DNA of 64,000 bases from NCBI GenBank assembly GCA_902622705.1, contig CACNQT010000004.1, positions 27,359 to 91,358 of the forward strand, given 5' to 3'. Each line of letters begins with the position of its first letter. Position 1 is the stretch's first letter. Shown here piece by piece: positions 15,683 through 18,276 of this stretch. This DNA comes from an uncultured Prochlorococcus sp. GTDB taxonomy: Bacteria; Cyanobacteriota; Cyanobacteriia; PCC-6307; Cyanobiaceae. A model generated the notes under the pieces. That model saw only the letters and a program-made list of their open reading frames with translations. It was not told the origin of the DNA and did no database searches. The position numbers were made by a program, and so were the translations under genes.

Positions 15683-16840
15683 TTAAGAACGAACCTGTAC
15701 AGGCATAACTAAATAAGTAAAAGAATTAAGATTATCTTCTGGTACAAAAACAGCTGGAGTAGTTGAAAGATTACACTTTAACAATACATTTTCTGAAGAA
15801 ATAACTTTTAAACCTTCTAAAAGATATCTAACGTTAAATGCAATATCAAAATTTTCTCCAGAGTATGAAACAGGAATGTATTCATTAGCATTTCCAATAT
15901 CTTGTGCATCTGCACTAATTGAAGCTGAATCTGTATTGTCTAATTTAATCTTCACAACATTACTCTGCTGATCCGCCAAGACAGCAATTCTTTCTAATGA
16001 GTCAATTAATCTTTTAGTATTAAAATTAAAAATCTTAGAAAAAGTATCAGGAATTAATTGTGAATAATTCGGATAGGTACCTTCTAAAGTTCTAGTTGTA
16101 ATTATTTGACTAGAAGATATAAAAACGACCTGACCTTTATCGTAAAAAAGCTTTATTGACTTTTCTGAGCTTCTTAAAGAAATTAGTTTTTCAATTTCTC
16201 TTAATGATTTTGTTGGAATAGTTACAGATAAATTACGTTCATTTAAAAATGAATTATCTTTATTTTCGATATATTCTTCGTCACCTATTAACGCGACAGC
16301 CAATCTATGACCATCTGTGGAAGCAGACTCTAGATAATTTTGTTTGAAGGTAAAATTTACTCCCGTAAGTAATTGCTTTGAATCATCATTACTACTAGCA
16401 AAGATGGTAGATTTTAAAGATTTTAAAAAAGAAATAGGGTCAATATTTAAAGAAGTTCCACTTTCAACAAATGGCAATTTTGGATAATCATCAGAGGGAA
16501 TACCTTTAATATTAAAGGAGCCTCTATCACTTTTAATTAAGATACTATCAGATTCATCAGATACTTCTAAAGAAACAGGAGTTTCAGTGGGTAATTTGTT
16601 TACTATTTCTGATAAAAGTTTTGAAGGTATTGTAATAGCTCCGCTATTCTTAACAGTTCCATCGAAAGATGTTTGAATTCCTAAATTAAGGTCAAATCCC
16701 GTCAAGCTAATTTTATTTGTTCCTTGGTCAGCTGTTAAAAGTATATTTGCGAGAATTGGATGAGTTGGTCTTGATGAAACTGCTTTACTTACTAACTGTA
16801 TAGCATTATTTAACTCACTTTGATTACAAATAATCTCCAT
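15683..16840 (-). CDS. dnaN: DNA polymerase III sliding clamp (beta subunit)
   Basis: Forms the ring that tethers the replicative polymerase. The 385-residue protein has the three-domain clamp pattern: MEIICNQSELNNAIQLVSKA at the start, RPTHPILANILL, FTFKQNYLESASTDGHRLAV in domain 2, and the YLVMPVQVR ending typical of bacterial clamps. It is the first gene to the left of the putative origin and reads away from it, as in other picocyanobacteria where dnaN rather than dnaA marks the origin. No dnaA gene is in the window. Confidence 0.97.
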   Translation of the reverse strand: MEIICNQSELNNAIQLVSKAVSSRPTHPILANILLTADQGTNKISLTGFDLNLGIQTSFDGTVKNSGAITIPSKLLSEIVNKLPTETPVSLEVSDESDSILIKSDRGSFNIKGIPSDDYPKLPFVESGTSLNIDPISFLKSLKSTIFASSNDDSKQLLTGVNFTFKQNYLESASTDGHRLAVALIGDEEYIENKDNSFLNERNLSVTIPTKSLREIEKLISLRSSEKSIKLFYDKGQVVFISSSQIITTRTLEGTYPNYSQLIPDTFSKIFNFNTKRLIDSLERIAVLADQQSNVVKIKLDNTDSASISADAQDIGNANEYIPVSYSGENFDIAFNVRYLLEGLKVISSENVLLKCNLSTTPAVFVPEDNLNSFTYLVMPVQVRS

Positions 16841-17175
16841 CGGGCTTTGGAACTTTTTACAAATACAATATACTTTTTTCGTAAATTAAATTCAATAACT
16901 TATTTATTTACTTTCTAAATATAAAATTAAAAATAAAATAATAAAGATTAGTAGTAGTAGTAACTGTGGAAACTGTGGAATTATAAATTTAATAACTAAA
17001 ATTACTATGTTTTTAAATATTTAAACAGGTGGAAAAAATTCTTTGTTTGTTGAATAAATTAAAATTTTTAAGATAGCTTTTTTTTTTCTTAACAAACCCA
17101 ATTATTTTTTGTTTGTTTTTCAACAATTGAAGGCTGTTTATAACTGATTTCCACAGACACTAATTTTTTTGGATT
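16841..17175. other. Putative chromosomal replication origin (oriC) region between dnaN and thrC
   Basis: This 335-bp gap has no ORF and is extremely AT-rich. It holds four DnaA-box-like 9-mers compared with the cyanobacterial form TTTTCCACA. Three are on the minus strand: GTTTCCACA (16965-16973), AATTCCACA (16974-16982) and TTTTCCACC (17028-17036). One is on the plus strand: ATTTCCACA (17147-17155). A poly-T run and repeated TTTGTTTG/TTCAAC words fill the rest. Position next to dnaN and the trinucleotide run (separate entry) support an origin. GC skew could not be computed here. Confidence 0.75.
16949..16982 (-). promoter_or_regulatory. DnaA-box pair plus DnaA-trio run (probable unwinding module of oriC)
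   Basis: On the minus strand, two abutting DnaA-like 9-mers (AATTCCACA, GTTTCCACA) are followed after one G by TTACTACTACTACTA and then a long A/T-only-like stretch toward dnaN. Read on the opposite strand 3' to 5', this is AAT-GAT-GAT-GAT-GAT, fitting the DnaA-trio consensus 3'-(G/A)A(T/A)-5' described for B. subtilis origin unwinding. Order, strand and polarity all match that module. On the plus strand the box pair also appears as a tandem AACTGTGGA duplication (16962-16979). Confidence 0.68.
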
Positions 17176-18276
17176 TTAATATCCTAAAATTTTGGTTATA
17201 TTTTTTAACGAAGGATCAATGTTTTTCTTGAAAATAGCATCATTGTTTTTAATCGCGCAATCAGGATCTTTCAATCCATTTCCAGTAAGAACACAAACGA
17301 TTCTCGATCCTTTTTGAATTCTATTTTTGTTTTTTATAAGTCCAGCAACTGAAGCAGCACTGGCAGGTTCACAAAATATTCCCTCTTTTGCAAGGATCTT
17401 ATAAGCTTCGATTATTTCTTCATCTGTAACTGACTGAAAATCTCCTTTGCTTTCTTTTTTAACTTTCTTTGCTTTTTCTCTATTAACAGGATTACCGATT
17501 CTTATAGCAGTTGCAATTGTTTCAGGGTCTTTAACAATTATATTTTTTACTAATGGAGCCGACCCTTCAGATTGAAATCCCATCATAGTTGGTAACTTCA
17601 AATTTCTTATTTTTAAATATTCTTTAAAACCTAACCAATAAGCAGTTATATTTCCAGCATTTCCCATTGGAATACAAAGCCAATCAGGTGCATAACCTAA
17701 GTCGTCAACTATTTCAAAGGCGGCTGTTTTTTGGCCTTGTATTCGATATGGATTAACAGAATTAACAAGTTCTATTGGATGTTCTGAAGATAAATCCCTT
17801 ACGATTTCTAGAGCTTTATCAAAGTTTCCATTAATTGATATAATTTCAGCTCCATACATTAAAGCTTGTGCGAGCTTCCCTTGTGCAACAAATCCTTCTG
17901 GGATTAAAACATAAGGTTTTAATCCTCCTCTAGAAGCATATGCAGCAGCAGCAGCGGAGGTATTTCCAGTACTTGCACAAATTACTGCTTCACGGCCTTC
18001 TTCTTTTGCTTTGCTAATAGCCATAGTCATCCCTCGATCTTTAAAAGATCCTGTGGGATTTAGACCATCATATTTTAAAAAAACTTTTGTTTCATTTCCA
18101 ATTAAATTGCTAAGTGAGTCACTAAGAATTAATGGGGTATTTCCTTCATTTAGAGAGATGATAGGAGTTTTCTTTGTAACTGGAAGATATTGTTTATAAG
18201 CTTCGATTAAACCTGGCCATCTTTTTTTTCTATAATTAATACCCAGTTTATTTTTGATTTTATTTAATAGCACCAT
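17176..18276 (-). CDS. thrC: Threonine synthase
   Basis: PLP enzyme converting O-phosphohomoserine to threonine. The PLP lysine is in [11 protein letters not shown] (Lys79), the phosphate-cradle glycine loop is seen at MGNAGN, and [15 protein letters not shown] is the substrate/PLP asparagine loop. Length 366 fits the shorter class without the plant-type regulatory N-terminus. It ends at the origin region, so it is transcribed toward oriC. The DUF1400-like gene lies 6 bp upstream, giving a minus-strand set ubiB-like, DUF1400-like, thrC. Confidence 0.96.

Follow-up and report, generated by a model that had tools for sequence, protein, structure and literature searches.

Among the described systems closest to the element analysed here is the B. 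subtilis (Bacillus subtilis) basal unwinding system (BUS), which consists of DnaA-boxes 6 and 7 of oriC and the adjacent DnaA-trios (PMC6669920, PMC10721633). Five residues of B. subtilis DnaA, namely N187, I190, I193, R202 and E228, have been named for base capture (PMC10721633), and residues 187 and 202 contact the captured adenine and guanine. Mutagenesis in the same study indicated that 3'-GA-5' is preferred and that the adenine at the centre can be exchanged for cytosine, which likewise bears an amino group, whereas guanine and thymine are poorer substitutes; the authors raised wider base recognition as a possibility (PMC10721633). BUS elements have been predicted in 85% of 2070 origins, with a peak of box-trio distances at 10-13 bp, and the BUS predicted in S. 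elongatus has been unwound in vitro with S. elongatus DnaA (PMC8287927). In cyanobacteria, origins adjacent to dnaN and containing TTTTCCACA boxes are the rule (PMC4674748, PMC6323995), and the locus described below shares this position and this box consensus with the entries of DoriC (PMC6323995) and the oriC of Cyanothece (PMC4674748). For cyanobacteria, the available portions of these two sources give boxes and A/T-rich DNA, but neither the register of the trios nor how it varies.

The window, that is, the whole 64-kb stretch of DNA that was analysed, contains purF, purL, dnaN and thrC, all on the minus strand, in a gene order of the Prochlorococcus type. From 16982 down to 16949, in the spacer between dnaN and thrC, the minus strand reads AATTCCACA-GTTTCCACA-GTTA-CTACTACTACTA and continues into A/T-rich DNA toward dnaN (Table 1). 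The A+T fraction per 20 nucleotides is 0.85-1.0 from 16861 to 16940, and positions 16921-16940 are 100% A+T. An initial annotation had proposed a basal unwinding module at 16949-16982, with two boxes, one G and the run TTA(CTA)x4, and re-reading of the sequence reproduced its coordinates and letters exactly. The order of boxes and run also stands, but the spacing between them is a 4-nt linker rather than one G. The four CTA repeats are conserved, whereas TTA falls in this linker, which is variable in relatives, and is therefore not counted as a trio; a fifth trio was accordingly rejected, its position not being conserved in genus spacers. Similarly, the proposed strand and polarity match those of the B. 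subtilis BUS, except that the run had been given as a minus-strand feature, whereas the trio strand that would be gripped by DnaA is the plus strand, opposite CTACTACTACTA (CTA x4, 16949-16960).

Table 1. Features of the dnaN-thrC region of the window and genomes or loci that deviate from the common pattern.
Feature	Position or identifiers	Strand	Remarks
dnaN, DNA polymerase III beta clamp	15683..16840	-	start at 16840; full-length homologues
dnaN-thrC spacer, predicted oriC	16841..17175	.	about 338 bp; thrC ends at 17176
Putative dnaN promoter, TTGAAT-17 nt-TATATT	16867..16895	-	edge of predicted opening region
A/T-rich stretch, predicted strand-opening region toward dnaN	16873..16948	.	putative function
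Four DnaA-trios, 3'-GAT-5' x4, predicted DnaA single-strand binding site	16949..16960	+	read 16960 -> 16949
Linker GTTA, box 2 to trios	16961..16964	-	length of 4 nt fixed, sequence variable; G at 16964, TTA at 16961-16963
Downstream DnaA box (box 2), GTTTCCACA	16965..16973	-	tandem with box 1, 9-bp register
Upstream DnaA box (box 1), AATTCCACA	16974..16982	-	TCCACA core almost unchanged across the 89 genus spacers
Weaker DnaA-box-like site, TTTTCCACC	17028..17036	-	drifts in relatives
Third DnaA box, ATTTCCACA, inverted	17147..17155	+	near thrC 3' end; TGTGG core in every aligned genus spacer
Loci of other families with no canonical box in the examined stretch upstream of dnaN	L391, L396, L407, L409, L411, L417, L363, L365		
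MED4-type dnaA loci with N187S/R202K	L299, L344-L355, L421-L431		
Prochlorococcus genomes with T- or G-centred trios	G339, G349, G353, G051, G105, G010		

As in B. subtilis, two co-oriented boxes and a short linker are combined with opposite-strand 3'-GAT-5' trios that read away from the box and are followed by A/T-rich DNA. The trio geometry is that of PMC8287927 and PMC10721633: the trios are on the strand opposite to that on which the boxes are read and run from the boxes into the A/T-rich DNA. The BUS search rule of PMC8287927 calls for at least three 3'-NAN-5' trios no more than 16 bp away from a DnaA box; here, four 3'-GAT-5' trios, all A-centred and thus in agreement with the canonical consensus, begin 4 nt from box 2. 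In the tandem co-oriented pair, the upstream box is 13 bp (9 + 4) from the trios, within the 10-13 bp range expected for the better-conserved box. Unlike the B. subtilis BUS, the Prochlorococcus element combines four near-perfect trios with boxes in a strict 9-bp register and a linker of 4 nt, and it adjoins dnaN, with dnaA far off. S. elongatus-like genomes (G264 and G246) have the same boxes, register, linker length and trio phase but differ in their GC-rich linkers (gccc) and in a larger number of upstream boxes, the Prochlorococcus spacer being short and containing fewer boxes.

Within the 1.18-Mb genome from which the window derives, CTACTACTACTA occurs once, at this site. A matcher for the complete layout (two boxes, N4 and CTACTACTACTA) scores 27/28 at the module and 18 at the next independent site in the window; the maxima in Markov-1 simulated windows are 18-20, which places the module beyond chance. 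In the genus alignment, few parts of the spacer are as well conserved as TCCACA-N3-TCCACA-N4-CTACTACTACT-A, and the layout is present in 89/89 genus spacers (minimum score 25/28 vs a shuffle maximum of 21). Beyond the genus, 32 further genera of the family contributed 74 spacers, and a scoring anchor placed the layout where expected in 73 of them, two of which score no higher than their own best shuffle. As a check, all 79 named GTDB loci contain the layout when it is located with an anchor that ignores trios 2-4, in agreement with the scoring anchor. In other cyanobacterial families, the layout was detected in 45 of the 62 genomes, covering 22/29 families. The TAG/CTA run is thus not specific to one strain, and the conservation check attached to the initial annotation came out in its favor; sequence, phase and spacing are retained in the genus, in the family and in most of the class sampled.

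Short trinucleotide repeats are prone to slippage, and the CTA run could in principle be a chance microsatellite beside two boxes. The single copy in the genome argues against this, as does the constancy of run length, phase and linker over the family and 22 other families while the flanking columns vary freely (on a 96-tip tree, 201 changes are inferred for the 9 columns that follow the run vs 81 for the 12 trio columns). We regard the microsatellite reading as refuted, for practical purposes, by the conservation in the genus, the GTDB loci and the other families. On the same tree, C is invariant at positions 6 and 8 of box 2.

The module is not universal in cyanobacteria, given that 8 of the 62 other-family genomes, all among the 17 misses, lack a canonical DnaA box in the examined sequence upstream of dnaN. 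These genomes may have displaced or DnaA-independent origins, both of which are known in cyanobacteria (PMC7198777). In addition, family f15 (L410, L418) may have a variant layout, with boxes and a CTA run in a different box register (GTTATCCAC-ATATCCACA).

The placement of the module in the chromosomal origin relies on a relative, the genome at hand being a 49-contig draft (76% complete). In a complete genome (G015; 1,657,990 bp), which we take to be MED4, the GC skew was computed on 40 stretches of 20 kb, about 41 kb apart, two of which show low apparent GC, probably due to masked bases. The cumulative minimum falls at the dnaN junction and hence at this spacer, at the ~41-kb sampling and with a weak skew, the best two-way split being reached by 8/300 permutations; this split begins at the record's dnaN end, with a change of sign near 0.71-0.76 Mb. 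The skew check attached to the original proposal thus came out in its favor. Inside the 64-kb window, the module does not coincide with a minimum of the cumulative skew, and local skew is uninformative at this scale. The lack of a dnaA gene nearby, which had been presented as notable, is real, with dnaA located on another contig, but such a distance is ordinary for cyanobacteria (PMC7198777). In MED4, dnaA and dnaN are 532 kb apart.

The same arrangement could reflect a DnaA-regulated promoter element of dnaN or a DnaA titration site, in which case the trio run would have no role in opening. A promoter-like TTGAAT-N17-TATATT sequence does lie between the module and dnaN, and the window and the genus consensus are identical there; however, promoter-like sites in the module-dnaN region show no excess over shuffled sequence. 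For regulation of this kind, there would be no need for a run on one strand, 4 nt away from box 2, to be conserved with a three-base period, or for its substitutions to obey the DnaA base-capture rule (see below). Moreover, the distance to dnaN varies from ~130 to >500 bp between families, whereas the box-trio spacing is fixed. We therefore consider a purely regulatory or titrating function highly improbable.

The DnaA protein of the same genome, aligned to the B. subtilis DnaA of the BUS cryo-EM entry 8btg, contains the equivalents of all five base-capture residues (B. subtilis numbering). Taken together with the conservation and the skew minimum in MED4, this supports the initial annotation in its central claim: the 34 bp most likely represent the BUS of the chromosomal origin, opening toward dnaN (with a probability of roughly 0.9). 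The sequence, its uniqueness, the conserved spacing and phase, the skew minimum in a relative and the DnaA capture residues are directly established; by analogy with the known system, we infer that the module is bound by DnaA, unwound and used for helicase loading. Under the proposed mechanism, two DnaA molecules would bind the tandem boxes as duplex DNA, and their AAA+ domains (domain III) would start a DnaA filament extending onto the plus strand. The filament would then grip the four 3'-GAT-5' trios from 16960 to 16949, one protomer per trio, with the G and A of each trio captured by DnaA. The plus strand would thereby be stripped from its partner and the A/T-rich DNA opened toward dnaN, and the helicase would probably be loaded in this opened DNA.

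Few photosynthetic organisms are as abundant as Prochlorococcus and Synechococcus; to our knowledge, the site and manner of opening of their chromosome have so far been judged from GC skew and counts of boxes. The module provides a 34-bp target for direct tests of origin opening, and its variants in the family amount to a natural mutagenesis series on which features of single-stranded DNA are read by DnaA. The BUS as a type is already known; the comparative pattern of the trios, outlined below, seems to be new.

In other genera of the family, the first base on the CTA strand is C in 98.6-100%, and the middle base is G (C on the trio strand) in 38% at trio 2, 28% at trio 3 and 49% at trio 4, so that adenine is not found at every trio centre in these genera. 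Parsimony on a DnaN tree with 96 tips yields 36 middle-base changes, of which 28 are T<->G, that is, A<->C on the trio strand, and 8 are to or from A (trio-strand T); none of the 36 involves C (trio-strand G). The share of T<->G changes is 28/36 at the middle base vs 37/201 in the nine columns after the run (P = 7e-12, an indicative value because it is derived from parsimony counts). Changes at the third base are mostly A<->G (22/33). In 25 genomes with altered trios, DnaA retains N187 and R202. The middle-base changes and the near-fixed preceding G in the family match the published amine rule; the exceptions are four genomes of genera g24 and g3 with A (trio-strand T) at one centre, in which DnaA retains N187. 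We found no report of natural C-centred trios in the literature searched. Because such trios fall outside the published search motif, those of the other genera can be said at most to work like a BUS, and they can be overlooked by scans in which adenine is required at the centre (3'-NAN-5'; PMC8287927).

The C-centred trios of Synechococcus and Cyanobium occur mainly where the GC content is high within the family, and drift of boxes to G/C has been reported for GC-rich cyanobacteria (PMC6323995), which would fit mere GC drift with loss of module function in these genera. This explanation concerns the comparative claim, not the element in the window, and we consider it unlikely. Neutral drift predicts T -> C, which accounts for 0/16 middle-base changes from T vs 27/138 in control columns (P = 0.08 alone), and leaves the T<->G excess unaddressed. 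The trio G stays fixed, and DnaA keeps N187 and R202. Furthermore, in genomes of other families at 50-75% local GC, trios 1-3 are A-centred (T on the CTA strand) in 16/16 cases, so that high GC alone is insufficient for C-centred trios; these control genomes were chosen at a score of at least 22/28, a threshold that would still admit C-centred trios.

A different deviation is seen in MED4-type Prochlorococcus, in which DnaA contains N187S and R202K in 13/13 genomes and in 11 more, two of these at 87-88% identity, whereas all other family genomes checked keep N187 and R202. In the genus census, in which the layout pattern matched 167/266 genomes, T- or G-centred trios are present in 6/17 MED4-type genomes vs 0/133 other Prochlorococcus, the latter having been sorted by DnaA identity to MED4, with DnaA residues checked in part of them. 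The corresponding P = 6e-7 was computed on 6/16 vs 0/134, before one genome (G324) was moved into the MED4 type. The deviant trios read CAA, CCA or TAA on the opposite strand and involve at least four kinds of change. The N187S/R202K replacements and the tolerated T- or G-centred trios are a candidate case of initiator-origin co-evolution; the link is a correlation within one clade, as the residues may have changed only once.

On balance, we favor a combined interpretation in which the natural trios, 3'-G(A/C)(T/C)-5' with a centre that alternates between A and C and is never G, replicate the B. subtilis amine rule, and in which the MED4 type, the sole clade in which T- or G-centred trios were found within the genus, would be a candidate for co-evolution of initiator and origin. 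The variants lead to two predictions, namely that cytosine-centred trios are functional and that bases are read differently by the MED4-type initiator.

Outside the module, the dnaN-thrC spacer, which is 332-360 bp long among the genus spacers, contains two further box-like sites (Table 1). The context of the third box is conserved beyond the 9-mer, with GTGTCTGTGGAAATCA on the minus strand in the window and in relatives.
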